DNA from: Myxococcales bacterium
GTDB taxonomy: Bacteria; Lernaellota; Lernaellaia; Lernaellales; Lernaellaceae
Direction of reading: 5' to 3'
DNA: 50,335 nt
Assembly (NCBI GenBank): GCA_012517325.1
Contig: JAAYVF010000125.1
Coordinates: 1 to 50,335, forward strand
Shown: positions 29,656 to 38,448 of the stretch, in pieces
How the letters are laid out: every line of letters starts with the position of its first letter
Position numbering within the stretch: position 1 is the stretch's first letter
Notes under the pieces: generated by a model
The model's database searches: none
Told to the model about the DNA's origin: nothing
The model's input: the letters and a program-made list of their open reading frames with translations, nothing else
Translations under genes and position numbers: made by a program

Positions 29656-30921
29656 TCACCGACGCCGGGTTTCCGCCGCGCGCGCGTGCGCGGCCAGCCC
29701 TTCCAGCCGCGCCAGGGCCGCCGCATCCGCCGTCAGTTCACGACGATCGGCTTCGGGATCGATCGCCATCCAGGTACGGACCCGCAAGAAATGGAAGACC
29801 GACAAGCCGCCCACGAACCGCGCCGTGCCGCCGGTCGGCAGCACGTGGTTCGGCCCGAAACCGTAATCGCCGAAGACCTCGGCGCTGGCCTCGCCGATGA
29901 ACAGCGAACCGTAATGCCGCAGCCGGGGAACGAGCGCCCACGGTTCGGCCGCCAGTAATTCCAGATGCTCCGGGGCCAGTCGGTTGCAAAGTGCGACGCC
30001 GGCCTCCAGGTCGTCGACGAATACGTAAAAACCGTTTTGCAACGCCGCCCGTGCCGTCGCCGCCGTCGGCAAATCCGCCAGTTGCCGCTGCAGTTGGACT
30101 TCCACTCCCGCCGCCAGCGTTTCGCTCGTCGTGACCAGGATCGGCCAGGCGTCCGGATCGTGTTCGGCTTGCGCCAGCAAATCCGCCGCCACGCGCACCG
30201 GATCGGCGGTTTCGTCGGCCAGAATCAACAGCTCCGACGGCCCGGCCAGCATGTCGATCGCCGCGCGACCGAAGACGAGCTGTTTCGCCGCGGTCACCCA
30301 GCGGTTTCCCGGTCCGACGATCGACTCGCAGGGCGGCGGCCCGCCGACGCCGAAGGCCAGCGCGGCAATCGCCTGAGCGCCGCCGACCGCCAACAGGGCG
30401 TCCGCCCCGGCGATCGCCGCCGCCGCCAGAACTTCCGGCGACGGCCGCGGCGAAGCCACCCAGATCTCGCTTACCCCGGCGACGCGGGCGGGAATGACGG
30501 TCATCAGCACCGAGGACACCAAGGGGAAACGGCCGCCGGGCGCGTAACAACCGGCCCGCTCGACCGGCGCCACGGTATGTCCGGCGCGACCTTCCGGCAG
30601 CGACACCGTCAAATCCGCGAAGGAACGCCGTTGCGCCTCGGCAAAATTGCGAATCCGCGCGGCGGTGCGTTCGAGCAAGTCGCGAGTTTTCGGGTTCAGC
30701 CGGTCGGCGGCGGTGTCGAGTTCCGCGCGCGAACGAACCAATGGCTCGGCCGCCTGCAGATCGCCCAGGCGCACCGCCTGCCCACGCAACGCGGCTTCGC
30801 CGCCCCGGCGCACATCGTCCACGATCGCGGCGGCCGCCGCCAAGGTCGGGGCATCGACGGGTTCGCGCGCCTGCCGGACGACGTCCGCGGCGGCCATTCG
30901 CCGCAGGATGACCTCGCTCAT
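29656..30921 (-). CDS. hisD: Histidinol dehydrogenase
   Basis: A 421-residue enzyme for the last two steps of histidine synthesis (histidinol to histidine, NAD-dependent, zinc-containing). The signatures RAGCYAPGGRFPLVSSVLM, ALLAVGGAQAIAALAFG, GPGNRWVTAAKQLVFG, and the catalytic GPSELLILADE with AQAEHDP are present, followed by LAPEHLEL and the GPNHVLPTGGTARF motif. The start ATG overlaps the preceding hisA-hisI-hisE stop by four bases (ATGA). It is the last gene of the operon. Confidence 0.95.
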   Translation of the reverse strand: MSEVILRRMAAADVVRQAREPVDAPTLAAAAAIVDDVRRGGEAALRGQAVRLGDLQAAEPLVRSRAELDTAADRLNPKTRDLLERTAARIRNFAEAQRRSFADLTVSLPEGRAGHTVAPVERAGCYAPGGRFPLVSSVLMTVIPARVAGVSEIWVASPRPSPEVLAAAAIAGADALLAVGGAQAIAALAFGVGGPPPCESIVGPGNRWVTAAKQLVFGRAAIDMLAGPSELLILADETADPVRVAADLLAQAEHDPDAWPILVTTSETLAAGVEVQLQRQLADLPTAATARAALQNGFYVFVDDLEAGVALCNRLAPEHLELLAAEPWALVPRLRHYGSLFIGEASAEVFGDYGFGPNHVLPTGGTARFVGGLSVFHFLRVRTWMAIDPEADRRELTADAAALARLEGLAAHARAAETRRR

Positions 30922-32180
30922 TTCCCTTTCCCCTTCTTATCCGGCCGGCGTGTCACGCGTCCGGCCCGGCCGTCCAAAACGGTTTCCACCTCGGCCAGCG
31001 TGACCCCGCCGCGTGCCATGGCGGTCAGCGTAAAATAGAACACATCGGCCGCCTCCCAGGCGATTTCATCCGGCGTTTTCGCCTCGGCCAGTTCGCGGGC
31101 TTCCTCCGCCAGCTTCGCCGCCAGCAATTCCGGATCGGCCGCCAGCCGCTGCGTATACGAGCCTTCGGGCGCTTCGCGAAGACGCGACGCCAACCGGCGC
31201 GACAGTTGAGACAGCCCGCCGTCCTCGCCCCAACAGGTGCGCGTGCCGCGATGGCAAAAGCCCTTGCCCTTTTGCCGCACGGTGAACCGCAGCGCATCGC
31301 GGTCGCAGTCCGCGTCGATCCGCACCAGTTCCTGCGTATCGCCCGAGGTCGCGCCTTTCACCCACCGGCCGCGCGAACGCGAGTGATAAACGCCTTGCGC
31401 GGTGCGCAGCGCCTCGCGCAGGCTTGCGCGATCCGAGTAAGCCAGCCCCAGCGCGATGCCGCTCTCGTCGACGATCACCGTCGGCCACAAGCCGTCGGGG
31501 CGATCCGAACGCAACGGCGCGGCGAACGCGTCGGCCAGCTCCATCCGGCCCGTATACAAGGCCATGCCGACCTGCGCGTCGATGTCCAGGCGGTCCAACG
31601 CCGCGACTTCCTCCAGCGTCGTCACCCCGCCGGCGATCGTCAGGCGCGCGGCGCCGATTTCCTCGCGTAGCGCGGCGACGCGGTCCAGCTCGATGCCCCC
31701 CAGTCGTCCCTCGCGCTCGACGAAAGTGACGAGAAAACCGCCGACCAGGCCGCGCAATTCCCGCAACCGTTCCCGGATGGTGGCGCCGGTTTTTTTCCGC
31801 CAGCCTTCCACCACCACCTCATCGAACTCGGCGTCGAGCGCCGCGACGACCCGTTCCGGGGGCAGTTCGCGGAGCACTTCCGGCACGGCGGCGGTGCCCA
31901 GCACCACCTTCGTCGCGCCGTCGTCCAACCAGCGCCGGGCGGTGTCCGCATCGCGGATGCCGCCGCCCACCCGGCAAGGCGCCAGGCGCAGCAGTTCGCG
32001 AATCAACTCGCGGTTGTCGCCGCGGCCCAGGGCCGCGTCCAGATCGACCACGGCGATTTCGCCGACCAGGCCGAACGCCTTCGCCAACGGGCGCGGATCG
32101 CCGGCATCGAGTTTTTTTTCGCGACCGCCGACGAGTTGCACCGTCGAACCGTTCATCAAGTCGATCGAAGGAATGATCAT
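30918..32180 (-). CDS. Trifunctional HisA-HisI-HisE fusion protein
   Basis: One 420-residue protein joins three histidine enzymes. Residues 1-220 are the HisA-type isomerase barrel with acidic residues Asp7 (IPSIDLMNG) and Asp116 (AALDAEFD). Residues 225-318 are PRA-cyclohydrolase HisI: AYSDRASLREAL, HSRSRGRWVKGATSG, the DADCDRD metal motif and Cys309/Cys316. Residues 322-410 are PRA-PP pyrophosphohydrolase HisE (LAEEARELAEA, EAADVFYFTL). HisI-HisE fusions are common, but HisA joined to them is unusual. The start ATG at 32180 overlaps hisF by four bases, and the stop overlaps hisD (ATGA). The in-frame extension upstream lies inside hisF and is not family sequence. Confidence 0.92.
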   Translation of the reverse strand: MIIPSIDLMNGSTVQLVGGREKKLDAGDPRPLAKAFGLVGEIAVVDLDAALGRGDNRELIRELLRLAPCRVGGGIRDADTARRWLDDGATKVVLGTAAVPEVLRELPPERVVAALDAEFDEVVVEGWRKKTGATIRERLRELRGLVGGFLVTFVEREGRLGGIELDRVAALREEIGAARLTIAGGVTTLEEVAALDRLDIDAQVGMALYTGRMELADAFAAPLRSDRPDGLWPTVIVDESGIALGLAYSDRASLREALRTAQGVYHSRSRGRWVKGATSGDTQELVRIDADCDRDALRFTVRQKGKGFCHRGTRTCWGEDGGLSQLSRRLASRLREAPEGSYTQRLAADPELLAAKLAEEARELAEAKTPDEIAWEAADVFYFTLTAMARGGVTLAEVETVLDGRAGRVTRRPDKKGKGK

Positions 32181-32932
32181 CGCCGCACCTCCACGCCCTG
32201 CTCGGCGAGGTAATCTTTCAACTGCGCCACGGTGTATTCGTTGTAATGAAAAATCGACGCGGCCAGCACGGCGTCGGCGCCCGCCGCCAGCGCTTCGTAC
32301 AATTGGCGCGGCGTATCGGCGCCGCCCGAGGCGATGACCGGCACGTTGACGGCGCGAGCCACGGCGCCGACCAATTCCAAATCGTAACCGGTGCGGGTGC
32401 CGTCGCGGTCCCAACTGGTCAGTAGGATTTCGCCGGCGCCCAGCGCGCAGGCTCGACGGACCCACTCGATGGCATCCAGGCCCGTATCCTTGCGACCCGA
32501 TTCGACCACTACCTGCCAGCGGCCCGGCGCCGTCAGTTTCGCGTCGACCGCCAGGATCGTGCATTGACGGCCGAAGCGCTCGGCCAGCAGCGACAGCAGT
32601 TCGGGCCGCGCGACCGCCGCCGTGTTCACACCGACTTTGTCCGCGCCGGCCTCCAGCAAGGCCCCGGCGTCTTCCACGCCGCGCACGCCGCCGCCGACCG
32701 TCAGCGGGATGGCGATTTTTTCCCTGACCCGGCGCACGGTTTCCAGCGCCGTTTTCCGGCCCTCCGGCGTGGCCGAGACGTCAAGCAAAACCAATTCGTC
32801 GGCGCCTTGCCGTTCGTAGGCGGGCGCGAAATCCTCGGGCCGGCCGGCTTCGCGCAAATCCTGAAAACGGACGCCTTTGACCACCCGACCGTCGCGCACA
32901 TCCAGGCAGGGAATGATCCGCCGGGTCAGCAT
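32177..32932 (-). CDS. hisF: Imidazole glycerol phosphate synthase cyclase subunit
   Basis: A 251-residue TIM-barrel enzyme that, with HisH, converts PRFAR to imidazole glycerol phosphate and AICAR. The catalytic Asp11 (IPCLDVRDGRVVKG) and Asp130 (ILAVDAKL) sit exactly where the family has them. Phosphate-binding loops GGGVRGVEDA and SGGADTPRQLYEAL are also seen. ATG 32932 overlaps the end of hisH by seven bases, so the two subunits are coupled. Confidence 0.95.
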   Translation of the reverse strand: MLTRRIIPCLDVRDGRVVKGVRFQDLREAGRPEDFAPAYERQGADELVLLDVSATPEGRKTALETVRRVREKIAIPLTVGGGVRGVEDAGALLEAGADKVGVNTAAVARPELLSLLAERFGRQCTILAVDAKLTAPGRWQVVVESGRKDTGLDAIEWVRRACALGAGEILLTSWDRDGTRTGYDLELVGAVARAVNVPVIASGGADTPRQLYEALAAGADAVLAASIFHYNEYTVAQLKDYLAEQGVEVRR

Positions 32933-33540
32933 GTCTCGCCTCCCGCGCCCAACCAACGGCGCAGCAAATCCAGGCCCCATTGTCCCGACAGTTCGGGGTG
33001 GAACTGGCCGCCGATCACTGCCCCTTTTTCAAGCGCGGCGACGAAGCGGCCGCCGTGTTCCGCGTAGGCGGCCTGCCAGCCCGACGGGCATTCGGCTAGG
33101 CGATAGGAGTTGGCGAAGTAGGCGAATCCCGCCCGCAACAGACGGCAACCTTCGTCCGGCGCCACGTTGTTCCAACCCATCTGCGGCACGCGCACCGTAT
33201 CCGGAAACCGCCGGACAATCCCGGGAACGACCCCCAGTCCCGCCACGCCCAAATCTTCGTCACTGGCATCACACAGCAGTTGCAAGCCCAAGCAGATCGC
33301 CAACGTCGGCCGCCCGGCCGAGACCCGCGCCCGTAGCGGCGCAACCAGGCCGTCATCGGCCAGTTGCCGCATACCCGCGCCGAACGCGCCGACGCCCGGC
33401 AGCAACAGGTGCGAGGCTGTTTCGATATCTCGCGGCTCGTTGCTGACCCGCGGCGCCGCTCCGGCCCGCCGCAACCCGGCCAGGACCGACGCCAGGTTGG
33501 CGACGCCCGTCCGCACCACGATGACTTCCGGCCCGGTCAT
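32926..33540 (-). CDS. hisH: Imidazole glycerol phosphate synthase glutamine amidotransferase subunit
   Basis: A 204-residue class I glutamine amidotransferase that feeds ammonia to HisF. The catalytic triad is Cys83 (AICLGLQLL), His181 and Glu183 (GGQFHPELS). The [12 protein letters not shown] loop and VPQMGWN segment are the normal HisH pattern. The N-terminal strand differs from the usual DYGxGN ([10 protein letters not shown]), a mild change. It overlaps hisB by four bases at its start (ATGA) and hisF by seven at its end. Confidence 0.95.
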
Positions 33541-34127
33541 TCGAGCACCCCTTTGGTGCTGGGAACCGCCGTGCCGCCGTCCCGCGCCACCGCCTGCCGC
33601 AAGGCCAGCGCCAAAGCCTTGAACGCCGCTTCGGCCCGGTGATGGTCGTTGGCGCCGCGCAATACGTCAACATGCAGCGTCAATCGCGCCGCCGCCGCGA
33701 ACGAATGCAGGAAATGCGTGATGTTTTCGCCGGCCAGGTTGCCGATCGCCTCGCGTTGCAGTTGCAGTTCGACGACGGCGAAAGGCCGGCTGGAAATATC
33801 CACCACGGCCCGGGCGAGCGCCTCGTCGAGCGGCGCATAAGCCGATCCGAAGCGCGCGATGCCGCGCCGCTCGCCCAGAGCTTCCGCGAACGCCGTGCCG
33901 AGCGCCAGGGCGCAGTCCTCGACGCTGTGGTGATCGTCGACTTCCAGATCGCCCCGGCAGGCCAGATTCAAATCGAAACGGGCATGGCGCGCCAGGCTGT
34001 CGAGCAGATGATCCAGAAAGCCGATGCCGGTCCGGATCTTGGCCTGCCCCTCGCCGTCCAGGTTCAGTTGCAGCGTGATGTCGGTTTCCTTGGTCGTGCG
34101 TTGCACGGTGGCGCGACGTTCGGTCAT
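33537..34127 (-). CDS. hisB: Imidazoleglycerol-phosphate dehydratase, monofunctional
   Basis: A 196-residue manganese-dependent dehydratase with the two duplicated metal motifs: [18 protein letters not shown] and [19 protein letters not shown], then [16 protein letters not shown] and [18 protein letters not shown]. It lacks the N-terminal phosphatase domain of enterobacterial HisB, so the histidinol-phosphate phosphatase must be another protein, and the fused domain in the preceding gene fits that need. ATGA overlaps link it to both neighbours. Confidence 0.95.
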
Positions 34128-35854
34128 GGCAAAATCTCCTTCAATTCATCGAGGGAAGTCAGAACCCGCGCGGCACCAGCCTGGTGCAGCGCGGCCACGG
34201 CGGCGTCCGAACGGGCATAGGCCGGCAGGAAGCCGACCGGCACGACACCCGCCGCCCGGGCAGCCCGCAGATCGTCGCTGGCATCGCCGATCAGCCAGGC
34301 CCGCCGGACCGACATTTTTTCCAACGCCAGCCGCACCGGCGCCGGGTCGGGTTTCAGCGGCGCGTCCTCGCGGCAGATCACCGCCTGAAAGCGGCGCGCC
34401 AGACCGTGCCGCTCCAAAAATCGCCAGGCATCGGCGCGCGGCCGGCCGGTCACCACCGCCAGCGGCACTTTCGCCGCCAGTTGGTCCAGCAGTTCCGGCG
34501 CGGGCAAGAGGGTTTCCCGCGTCCACAGGCCGGGCGATTCCAGCGTTCCTTGGTATAGCGCCTCGAAGCGCTGGGTCACCTCGTCGAGCGAGACCTCGAC
34601 GCCGTGCCGCTGCAGCAGCCTGCCGGTCAGCTCCCAATCGTCGTTGGCGTCGGGCTCGAGCTTCGCCGCCGCGATCTCGTCGCGCTGGATCGTGACGCCG
34701 TAAAAATCCAGCACTGCCTGCATCACCGCGCGATAGGATTGCGAGACGTCGGCCAGCACGCCGTCCAGATCGAACAGCAGCGCCTCGGGCGCCAGCACCG
34801 CGTGCAGCGCCGTTTGCAACCGCCGGAAATCCGCTTCGTCGCTCGGACAGGTGATCCGCAAACCGGCGGGGAAATCCCCGTCGGGCGGAATCCAGCGCAC
34901 GGCGATGCCCAGGCCGGCCAACGCGTCGCGCGCCCACCGCGGATCGGCGCAATGCGCGAAGACGAAATTGCCCTGGGAAGGCAACGGCCGCGCGCCCCAT
35001 CGCGTCAGGTCGGCCTGCAATTCGGCGCGCTCCTGCCGCACCCGGTCGACGGTCGCCGCGACCGCCGCGCGCCCCTCACGCAGCCAGCGCGTCGCCAGCG
35101 TCAATGACAGGTTGGAAACCGGATATGGGCCGCCGCTGACGCGCAAAGGAGCGATCAAATCCGCTGGGCCGATCGCATAGCCGACCCGCAGACCCGCCAG
35201 TCCCCAAGCCTTGGAGAAGGTAAAGACGGTGATCGCGTTGGGCAGCGCGAAAACGGTTGACCGCAAATCGACCTCGGCAAAATCCGCGTACGCCAGATCG
35301 ACCAGCAACACGGCATGCGGCGCGGCTTCGGATATTCGCCGCAAATCGTCGGCCGCGACCACACCGCCGGTCGGGTTGTTGGGGCTGATCGCCACGATCA
35401 TTCCCGTCCGCTCGGTCACCGCCGCCAGGGCTTCCGCGGTCGGAAAGGCGAGTTTCGTCCAGGGCACGCGCACGATCCGGCCGCCGCTCAACCGGGCGAA
35501 AACCGCCGCCATTTCGAACGTGGGGACCGGCAGGACGACTTCGCGATCCGGCTGGACGAAAACGCGGCAACAACGATCGATGGCGTCGTCGCCGCCGGCC
35601 GTGACCAGCACCTGCTCCGGCCGCACGCCGTGGTACGCCGCCAAGGCCGCTTCCAGTTCGTGGGCGCGAACGTAACGATTCATCAATTCCGGGCCGGCCT
35701 CAGCGAGCGCGCGTAACAACCCCGGCGGCGGCGCCACGCCCTCGTTGCTGTCCAATTTCAAATCGGTCGGCGCGGGAGCGCGCGGCACGGTATACGCGTA
35801 CAAGCCATCCAGATTCGGCGAAGGCCGCGGGCGCCGGGAAATATTTTCGTCCAT
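34124..35854 (-). CDS. hisC: Bifunctional HisC histidinol-phosphate aminotransferase / HAD phosphatase fusion
   Basis: A 576-residue fusion. Residues 1-350 are a fold-type I aminotransferase of the HisC family ([24 protein letters not shown] and the Schiff-base Lys215 in [17 protein letters not shown]). Residues 356-576 are a HAD-superfamily phosphatase with [10 protein letters not shown] (Asp362 nucleophile, Asp364), VVTGRPR, Lys in KPDP and the GDASDD acidic motif. Together they could carry out imidazole-acetol phosphate transamination and then histidinol phosphate dephosphorylation. The start ATG 35854 has GGAGG upstream and gives a normal HisC N-terminus; the long extension reaching into hisG is not real. 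It follows hisG by 11 bases. The phosphatase role is inference from domain and context. Confidence 0.9.
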
Positions 35855-35865
35855 CCCGGCCTCCT

Positions 35866-36741
35866 TCACGGCACCAGTTGATCGGGCGCGGTCACCACGA
35901 TATCGGTGCCGCCGTGCTTCTTGATCGCGGGAATCAGGGCCGGCAAATCCCGGCGCGGCACGGCCGCCTTCACCGCGTAAGCCGTCTCGCCGTACAAGTG
36001 CGAAATCGTCGGTCGACGCATGCACGGCAGCACCGCGACGATCGCCTCCAACCGGTCGGCGGGCACGTTAATTTCCAACATCACCCGTTCGCGCGCATCG
36101 AGCACCGAGCGCAGCAACAGAACGAAACTCTCGATCGCCTCGCGGCGCCGCGGATCGTCGAGCGCCCGCGGATGCGCGTAGAGGCGCGTCGAGGAGGTCA
36201 TCAGTTCATCGACGATCGCCAGGCGGTTTTCGCTCAAGGTGACGCCCGAAGCGGTGTTGTCGACGATGCAATCGGCGTCTTCCGGCGGAAAGACCTCGGT
36301 GGCGCCGTAGGAGCGGACGAACGTCGCTCGCAACCCCTGCCGGCGAATCCAGTCCAGGGTCAGCCGCTCGTACTCGGAAGCCACGACCAGCGGTTGATCC
36401 GGCAGGCGGCCGTCCACCAGCAGGTCGGCCGGCGCGGCGGCCACCAGGCGCACCGGATTGAGGCCGGTGTCCAGCAATTCCACCACTTTGGCCTCGAGCT
36501 CGGCCACCCAATCGGCGCCGGCGAACCCGATATCCCGCGATCCGACGTGCAACATTTCAATGACGTTTTGCGGCTTGAGCAGCTTGGCCGTGAACCCGGA
36601 GAGAGACAGCGCCGGCCGATAATTGCGACCACCCCAATGGACGCGAATCCCCGCCTCGGCCAACAGGGTAATCACCTCTTCCTGCATCCGCCCTTTCGGT
36701 AGGGCCAACCGCACCGCGACGCTTCCGAATTCCCGCGACAT
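35866..36741 (-). CDS. hisG: ATP phosphoribosyltransferase, long form with regulatory domain
   Basis: A 291-residue first enzyme of histidine synthesis, joining ATP and PRPP. It opens VRLALPKGRMQEEVITLLAEAGI, has the PRPP-site DADCIVDNTASGVTL, and ends with the ACT-like C-terminal domain (LEINVPADRLEAIVAVLPCMRRPTIS to GGTDIVVTAPDQL), which in the long form binds histidine for feedback inhibition, so no HisZ is needed. The ATG at 36741 has AAAGGA seven bases upstream and lies 14 bases after the T-tract of the leader terminator. It is the first structural gene of the histidine operon. Confidence 0.95.
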   Translation of the reverse strand: MSREFGSVAVRLALPKGRMQEEVITLLAEAGIRVHWGGRNYRPALSLSGFTAKLLKPQNVIEMLHVGSRDIGFAGADWVAELEAKVVELLDTGLNPVRLVAAAPADLLVDGRLPDQPLVVASEYERLTLDWIRRQGLRATFVRSYGATEVFPPEDADCIVDNTASGVTLSENRLAIVDELMTSSTRLYAHPRALDDPRRREAIESFVLLLRSVLDARERVMLEINVPADRLEAIVAVLPCMRRPTISHLYGETAYAVKAAVPRRDLPALIPAIKKHGGTDIVVTAPDQLVP

Positions 36742-36755
36742 CCCCAGTTCCTTTC

Positions 36756-36784
36756 AAAAAAAAACGCCGGCTCGAAGCCGGCGT
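36756..36784 (-). terminator. Attenuator terminator of the histidine operon
   Basis: On the minus strand a nine-base-pair stem, ACGCCGGCT with AGCCGGCGT, closes a three-base TCG loop and is followed by nine T residues (36764-36756). It lies between the leader peptide and hisG. With no histidine shortage this hairpin should stop transcription before hisG. Confidence 0.88.
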
Positions 36785-36835
36785 CGGTGGTGCCAAAACG
36801 AATCGCACTCATCCGGCTCCGGCAGCGCCGTGCGA
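36773..36835 (-). promoter_or_regulatory. Antiterminator and pause structures of the histidine attenuator
   Basis: The leader segment CGGAGCCGG (36821-36813) can pair with CCGGCTTCG (36781-36773) in the 5' arm of the terminator, nine pairs with one G-U, so it would block the terminator. A six-pair pause hairpin may form between TCGCAC (36835-36830, inside the His-codon run) and GTGCGA (36808-36803). Ribosome stalling at the His codons would favour the antiterminator. The pairings were found by eye. Confidence 0.7.
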
Positions 36836-36874
36836 ATGATGATGATGGAGAATCAGGTTGCCGAACGATTTCAT
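36809..36874 (-). CDS. hisL: Histidine operon leader peptide (21 residues, five His codons)
   Basis: A short open frame ATG at 36874 to TGA at 36811-36809 encodes MKSFGNLILHHHHSHGAAGA plus a final Gly. Codons 10-13 are four CAT in a row and codon 15 is CAC, the expected control codons for sensing charged tRNA-His. The stop codon falls just after the antiterminator segment. No clear ribosome-binding site precedes the ATG. If the candidate promoter at 36881-36909 is used, transcription would begin at or beside the ATG, giving a leaderless message. The frame was not long enough for routine gene calling; its position, codon content and the terminator that follows make it convincing. Confidence 0.85.
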   Translation of the reverse strand: MKSFGNLILHHHHSHGAAGAG

Positions 36875-36880
36875 GGCGGA

Positions 36881-36909
36881 AACTTAAACTGAAAATCCCG
36901 GTTTGTCAA
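36881..36909 (-). promoter_or_regulatory. Candidate promoter of the histidine operon
   Basis: On the minus strand a perfect -35 TTGACA (36909-36904) is followed after 17 bases by TAAGTT (36886-36881), a weak -10 with three consensus matches. The start point would fall near 36874. The -35 is strong, the -10 is not, so the assignment is tentative. Confidence 0.42.
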
Positions 36910-36975: not shown

Positions 36976-37004
36976 TTGACATCCTCCCGGCGGTTTTTTA
37001 TGTT
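36976..37004 (+). promoter_or_regulatory. Candidate sigma70 promoter for the DegT-type aminotransferase gene
   Basis: TTGACA (36976-36981) and TATGTT (36999-37004, four of six) are separated by 17 bases on the plus strand, diverging from the histidine operon promoter. Transcription would begin near 37011, leaving about 217 bases before the ATG at 37228. Apart from these signals and the ribosome-binding site, nothing else was recognised between 36910 and 37227. Confidence 0.5.
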
Positions 37005-37227: not shown

Positions 37228-38448
37228 ATGATCCCGAGGATGAAAGTGCGGGTTCACCACGGCGATGTCGCCAAATGGTTACGAGCCTTGTTCTGGCCGA
37301 ACCTGGCGCCGGGCACCGTCGTCAATCGTTTTGAAATGAAGTTCGCGGCTTATCTGGGCTGCATGACGGTCCGGGCGACCGCCAGCGTGCGCGACGCGTT
37401 CGAACTGGCGCTGGCGGCCCTGGGCGTCAAACACGGCGACGAAATCATCGTCCCGGCCTATTACCGCAGCGACATTATCCCACTGCTGGAAGCGCTGGGC
37501 ACCAAGCCGGTGACGGTCGACATCGAACCTGACACTTTCAACATCAATCCCGAGTTGATCGCCGCCCGGGTCACCCCAAAGACCAAACTGATCGTCGCGG
37601 CGCACCTGTTCGGCGCCCCGTGCAACATCGAGGCGATCCGGCGGGTGGCCGATCAGCGGCGCTTGTTGCTCCTCGAGGATTGCACCGCGGCCTTGGGCGC
37701 CGGTGTCAACGGTCGCAAGGTCGGCACCTTCGGCGACGCGGCGATTTTCAGCTTCGAGGTCAACAAACCCTTGCATACGTACGGCGGGGCGTTGATCGCC
37801 ACCGGCAATCCACGGATCGCCGATTCGCTGCGGAACCAGTTGAAAAATTACGCGCCCGCCAAGCTGCCGTCGCTCGGTAAAACCTTCCTCACCTGGATGA
37901 AGGAGTTGGCGATCCGCAGCCCGCTCTTCTGGCTGGTCACCCGGCTGGGACGGAAAAAAACGGCCGCGCGCCCGGCGACGCAAATTTACAGCGGCATCCA
38001 CCGGCATCTGCTCACCCGGAAAATCACCTACAGCGATTTCCAGGCCCGTCTGGGCATGGAGCGTTTGCGGCTGCTGGATCAACGCAACGCGGAGCTGAAT
38101 CGCCGGTGGGAGGAATTGGCCGCCAACTTGCCGATCTGGCTGTTGCCGCAAAAACGAAACCGGCACGGAACGCCGGCCTTTTCCGGCTTCGTCGCCCGCT
38201 GCCGTCTGAGCCCGGCGGAGTTGAAGCAAGCGGCGATGCACCAGGGTTTTTACGTCGGCGCCGGCAGTTCGATCGAGGAGGATTGCGGCCGGCTTTTGCA
38301 TTACGGCGATTGCCCGGAAGCGGCGCGGCTTTGCCGCGAGGCGGTGCGGCTGCCCTTGTACGAGGCGCTCAGCGAACGGCAATACCGGCGGCTGCGGAAA
38401 GCGATCGAGGAGGTGGAAAAGTCGATTCGCGTGCGGCTGGCGGGATGA
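37228..38448 (+). CDS. DegT/DnrJ/EryC1/StrS family aminotransferase
   Basis: A 406-residue PLP enzyme of the family that transaminates keto-sugars for surface polysaccharides or antibiotics. It has TASVRDAFELALAALGVKHGDEIIVPAYYRSD, VTVDIEPDTFNINPELIAA, AAHLFGAPCNIEAI, LLEDCTAALGAGVNGRKVGTFGD and FSFEVNKPLHTYGGALIA with the Schiff-base Lys. The N-terminal segment (residues 1-40) and the middle (residues 210-255, KELAIRSPLFWLVTRLGRKK) are longer and more basic than typical sugar aminotransferases, so the substrate may differ. AAGGAG lies ten bases before the ATG. No other sugar-nucleotide genes are nearby. It converges on the chemotaxis operon. Confidence 0.85.
   Translation: MIPRMKVRVHHGDVAKWLRALFWPNLAPGTVVNRFEMKFAAYLGCMTVRATASVRDAFELALAALGVKHGDEIIVPAYYRSDIIPLLEALGTKPVTVDIEPDTFNINPELIAARVTPKTKLIVAAHLFGAPCNIEAIRRVADQRRLLLLEDCTAALGAGVNGRKVGTFGDAAIFSFEVNKPLHTYGGALIATGNPRIADSLRNQLKNYAPAKLPSLGKTFLTWMKELAIRSPLFWLVTRLGRKKTAARPATQIYSGIHRHLLTRKITYSDFQARLGMERLRLLDQRNAELNRRWEELAANLPIWLLPQKRNRHGTPAFSGFVARCRLSPAELKQAAMHQGFYVGAGSSIEEDCGRLLHYGDCPEAARLCREAVRLPLYEALSERQYRRLRKAIEEVEKSIRVRLAG

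Follow-up and report, generated by a model that had tools for sequence, protein, structure and literature searches.

Ribosome-mediated attenuation of histidine biosynthesis is best known from E. coli and Salmonella, where hisL (Rfam RF00514) combines a run of His codons in a short leader ORF with mutually exclusive antiterminator and terminator helices, and hisG is the first gene behind them. The original prediction for the locus studied here described such attenuation as best known from gammaproteobacteria, which holds, but examples have also been published from Firmicutes (PMC9413887, PMC2965389). The latter come from the Bacillus cereus group, Eubacteriales, Erysipelotrichales and bacilli, and include hisS*/hisZ leaders (PMC2965389). 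In the portions of these two papers available to us, they likewise have His leader peptides with a terminator and an antiterminator before his genes, whereas a leaderless geometry is not mentioned there. According to PMC2965389, attenuators have been predicted in Acidobacteria, and almost none of them have associated functions. In Actinobacteria, no histidine attenuators were found (PMC1262725). The trpL attenuator of Sinorhizobium meliloti (PMC7298713) resembles the arrangement predicted for the present locus in that its RNA starts directly with the leader AUG, but it concerns tryptophan and belongs to Alphaproteobacteria.

In this study, we analyzed a 50,335-nt stretch of DNA (the window) and found that the element upstream of its hisG gene is a genuine his attenuator, which would work like hisL and lies outside the Rfam His_leader family. 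It shares with hisL the His-codon run, the exclusive helices and the position before hisG. Unlike hisL, the window's leader and those of ten relatives are not matched by the hisL model, there is no Shine-Dalgarno (SD) sequence before the leader ORF, and the hosts are other ones. Mycobacterial polycysteine short ORFs, reportedly described by Canestrari and colleagues in 2020, are said to be leaderless and to control the downstream operon through a codon run; they differ from the window's element in the amino acid (cysteine) and in the host group (Actinobacteria). Rfam 15 gave no match at gathering score for the window or for ten relatives. The His_leader model was not matched in the leader at E up to 10, nor in the ten relatives at E up to 1, and the T-box riboswitch model matched neither the window nor the leader. 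Permissive Rfam matches were all below gathering score and unrelated.

The elements of the leader are all on the minus strand. The -35 box TTGACA (36904..36909) is read directly in the sequence, and a proposed -10 element TAAGTT (36881..36886; TANNNT) would be separated from it by 17 nt and from the leader ATG by 6 nt. This -10 matches only 3 of 6 consensus positions, and the leader-bearing homologue L007 repeats the geometry as TTGACA-17-TAAGGT-6-ATG. From this geometry, the predicted transcription start is 36874, the first position of a 21-codon leader ORF (36809..36874) that encodes MKSFGNLILHHHHSHGAAGAG and ends at the stop codon 36811-36809. The sensor consists of four CAT codons (36836..36847), with a fifth His codon, CAC, at 36832-36830; four consecutive CAY codons were seen twice in the 50-kb window vs 0.10 expected. 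Strand 2 of the antiterminator comprises CGGAGCCGG and GTGC past the stop (36805..36821), as supported by duplex energy and covariation across 25 relatives. Strand 3, assigned from duplex energy, covariation and folding, comprises GCAC and CCGGCTTCG (36773..36793) and is common to the antiterminator and the 5' arm of the terminator. The terminator hairpin GACGCCGGCTTCGAGCCGGCGTT (36763..36785), identified by folding and covariation, has -17.4 kcal/mol and 10 pairs counting a G.U. It runs into a T9 tract (36756..36764), which ends 14 nt before the hisG ATG, with AAGGA at 36753-36749 in between. The original prediction had listed the TTGACA box, the His-rich frame of this length, a nine-pair antiterminator, and a terminator whose nine T residues end 14 bases before hisG. 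We located every one of these at the coordinates it gave; the antiterminator (36821-36813 with 36781-36773) has nine pairs, one of which is G.U, and the terminator stem has one pair more than predicted if its G.U is counted.

The downstream gene was also correctly called. hisG (35866..36741, minus strand, ATG at 36741) encodes the long form of ATP phosphoribosyltransferase with a C-terminal domain (NCBIfam TIGR00070 and TIGR03455; 132 bits against TIGR00070, cutoff 75.8). It heads a complete seven-gene cluster, entirely on the minus strand, covering the entire histidine pathway. The second gene is hisC fused to a HAD-type phosphatase, both recognized by profile matches; its longest ORF is 34124..36025, and since the 5' end of this ORF overlaps hisG, translation probably starts near 35860. 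We infer that the HAD domain, being fused to hisC, is a candidate histidinol-phosphatase. Profile matches also identified hisB dehydratase (33537..34127), hisH (32926..33540), hisF (longest ORF 32177..32980) and a hisA-hisIE fusion (longest ORF 30918..32564), whose true start is probably near 32180 because its first 128 codons overlap hisF. The pathway is completed by hisD (29656..30921; Pfam PF00815, 439 bits). When attenuators of trpE, ilvB and leuA were sought in the window's genome, neither trpE (E<=1e-60) nor leuA (E<=1e-80) gave a match despite the complete his operon, which possibly reflects Trp and Leu auxotrophy or divergent enzymes. On the plus strand, a strong promoter-like site, TTGACA-17-TATGTT (36976-37004), points away from the divergently oriented his operon and towards a DegT-family aminotransferase gene at 37228.

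To find relatives of the locus, we scanned named genomes for HisG and obtained 80. A search of relatives for His-run leaders before hisG, named in the original prediction as a check, was positive well outside gammaproteobacteria: 30 of the 80 carry a leader ORF with four or more His in a stretch of 6 codons, no more than 260 nt upstream of hisG. Such an ORF was found in 9 of 5880 pieces drawn at random from these loci (0.15%) and in 7 of 8000 shuffles of the upstream regions. For about half of the relatives, no leader is seen before hisG. Looser criteria, together with the window and the locus of G010, gave a set of 35 leaders, and in 34 of them a hairpin with a CGCCGGC-like core lies between leader and hisG. 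By the submitters' labels, the hosts of these 35 leaders are Planctomycetota (mostly Phycisphaerae), Myxococcota/'Deltaproteobacteria', Spirochaetota, Acidobacteriota, Gemmatimonadota and some bins called Pseudomonadota. Judged from these sequences, Planctomycetota and Myxococcota/'Deltaproteobacteria' carry the attenuator widely, and it occurs also in Spirochaetota, Acidobacteriota and Gemmatimonadota. In a tree of 83 HisG proteins, the phyla are intermixed and few branches are strong, so that horizontal spread is neither proved nor excluded by it.

Furthermore, we searched 294 genomes of the Planctomycetota group with a covariance model that starts at the start codon and is thus blind to the promoter. 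It matched in at least 15 of them, all 15 before hisG, and in none of 101 genomes in the phylum of G010; both counts are lower bounds since few candidates per genome were scored. In the window's phylum, the model matches G005 C64, G006 C3, G005 C136 and G000 C25, C19 and C48 were inspected and rejected, as they look like ordinary end-of-gene terminators or repeats.

We then considered where the leader mRNA begins. With the chosen first in-frame start codon as reference, 25 of 35 leaders have TTGAC at -34 to -39. In L014, L030, L044 and L053 it lies at this distance from the next in-frame start, which brings the total to 29, compared with about 0.3 expected from the TTGAC frequency and the number of positions. 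As an independent check, TTGAC was found at -34 to -38 in 9 of 13 new leaders from the promoter-blind model, where a leader for which the script recovered no His-run ORF was scored as having no TTGAC. SD matches of at least 4 nt precede 9/35 leaders (26%) vs 33% of random ATGs and 32/35 hisG starts, the last figure being favoured by taking the best of several possible hisG starts. The fixed distance of TTGAC, together with standard promoter geometry, places the start of transcription at the start codon or only a few bases from it. From this spacing and from SD matches at background, the leader mRNA is probably leaderless, a point that goes beyond the original prediction. The same attenuator might instead be translated by ordinary initiation on a transcript that starts further upstream, as the weak -10 of the window and the six leaders without TTGAC at the fixed distance would allow; initiation without an SD, by standby or S1-dependent routes, is known. 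Against this, the promoter spacing recurs in both leader sets, SD matches stay at background, and the window holds no other minus-strand sigma-70 match between 36700 and 37240. We regard such upstream initiation as unlikely, and a leaderless start as the better reading.

The phylum of the host genome is small, and 7 of its genomes were examined. Two genomes of the window's own family were informative. The leader of G001, MRESLMIRGRHHRFPATPGGRVMV, has only two adjacent His codons and keeps the conserved strands (53 bits, covariance model). G002 (contig identical to PMZC01000082.1, isolate fen_1099) keeps TTGACA and the terminator and has no leader ORF. By this sequence comparison, the attenuator is eroding within the window's family, and close relatives can lose the sensor; the erosion in these two closest genomes is likewise new relative to the original prediction. 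These states would also fit a leader that is a relic in this lineage, with the promoter and terminator imposing a constant partial block while the His codons have ceased to sense anything. However, the elements of the window are all intact, including the open ORF, five His codons, the antiterminator and the 10-pair terminator with T9, which makes a relic improbable here and favours a working attenuator. The his contig of G002 carries the submitter label 'Deltaproteobacteria'. In the same family, the region L002:2850-2974 was found to contain the his attenuator promoter and terminator without a leader ORF, that is, without the sensor.

Within the window alone, the statistics of the helices are modest. 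Against shuffles, pairing of strands 2 and 3 gave P 0.04 and pairing of strands 1 and 2 gave P 0.09, and the whole-leader free energy was not unusual (z -0.46). The case thus rests on comparison with relatives. We tested covariation on an alignment of 25 leaders with 500 shuffles. For the terminator (3:4) helix, 94.4% of cells are paired, and its covariation score was reached by 0/500 shuffles. The antiterminator (2:3) helix, formed by GGCCGGGTGATGG around the stop codon with CCATCGACGCCGGCC, has 74.5% of cells paired and a score reached by 6/500 shuffles; sliding its alignment by 1-3 columns reduced pairing to 31-47%. In L014 and L059, matching changes in strands 2, 3 and 4 keep both exclusive helices. 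The duplex of strands 2 and 3 has -24.3 kcal/mol in the window and a mean of -21.1 kcal/mol over 34 leaders, compared with -15.9 (sd 0.5) for shuffles; exchanging strands between relatives makes a weak control, given how conserved the sequences are. The 1:2 protector helix, in which the His codons pair with bases past the stop, pairs strongly in many relatives; it showed no covariation support in the leader alignment and was not significant in the window (P about 0.1). That a terminator before hisG merely met an accidental His-rich frame, as a whole-leader fold no better than shuffles might suggest, is refuted by the frequency of His-run leaders in relatives vs controls and by the covariation of the helices, and we give chance practically no weight.

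The original prediction had held the two helices to be mutually exclusive, and had proposed folding with and without a constraint over the His codons as a check. With a ribosome stalled at any of His codons two to five and the RNA ending with strand 3, the 2:3 fold was the minimum; with a ribosome at the stop codon, the terminator was the only structure able to form. The expected logic was thus obtained while strand 4 was unmade. Once the terminator was complete, it was thermodynamically preferred at every ribosome position, and the switch must therefore be kinetic, as in known attenuators. Three features of ribosome-mediated transcription attenuators are present: a run of end-product codons, an intrinsic terminator and, on computational grounds, an exclusive antiterminator that shares the 5' arm of the terminator and is freed when a ribosome stalls on the run. 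Together with the conservation of His-codon runs, alternative helices and terminators in relatives, this bears out the attenuator interpretation. We consider it very likely that the element controls the his operon by ribosome-mediated transcription attenuation, with a leader mRNA that is probably leaderless.

In the proposed mechanism, RNA polymerase would begin on the leader AUG (36874) or a few bases from it, and a ribosome would load on the 5' end of the RNA without an SD and trail the polymerase. When His-tRNA is sufficient, the ribosome would reach the stop codon and cover strand 2, so that strand 3 would pair with strand 4 and transcription would end at 36756. When His-tRNA is scarce, the ribosome would stall on CAT-CAT-CAT-CAT and leave strand 2 free. 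The free strand 2 would then pair with the emerging strand 3, blocking the terminator and allowing transcription of the his genes.

These data indicate that amino-acid attenuation is no specialty of gammaproteobacteria and Firmicutes, and is widespread in Planctomycetota, Myxococcota and neighbouring lineages with little known regulation. On balance, we favour the view that these leaders form a his attenuator class absent from Rfam and spread over five or more phyla, whose transcripts start on the initiation codon of the leader, so that ribosome loading would be coupled to the polymerase right from the first nucleotide. Other operons of these phyla may be built on this design. We found no report of this class in the literature searched, which did not extend to subscription papers such as the survey of proteobacteria published by Vitreschak and colleagues in 2004, so that priority is not established. 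A leaderless switch would bear on how a ribosome can catch up with RNA polymerase in the absence of an untranslated lead-in, and the conserved anatomy yields a covariance model able to annotate such operons.

Two leaders before other amino acid operons were also observed. In Acidobacteria bacterium Mor1, a Trp leader, MRASHIHPVTSAAAQYQGWWRWCIPTEVAF, lies upstream of trpE (L152, minus strand, about 3197-3105). It shows the same promoter spacing, TTGACG-17-TACGCT-6-GTG (with ATG next), and a terminator-like hairpin, and its sequence makes it a candidate leaderless trp attenuator in Acidobacteriota. In bacterium Gpa_12, a short ORF rich in Ile, Leu and Val (VIHLVLLVLSVLLLILRGRSGEAPGR) and then a terminator lie upstream of ilvB (L142:548-646); the promoter is unclear, and we consider this leader a candidate branched-chain attenuator.
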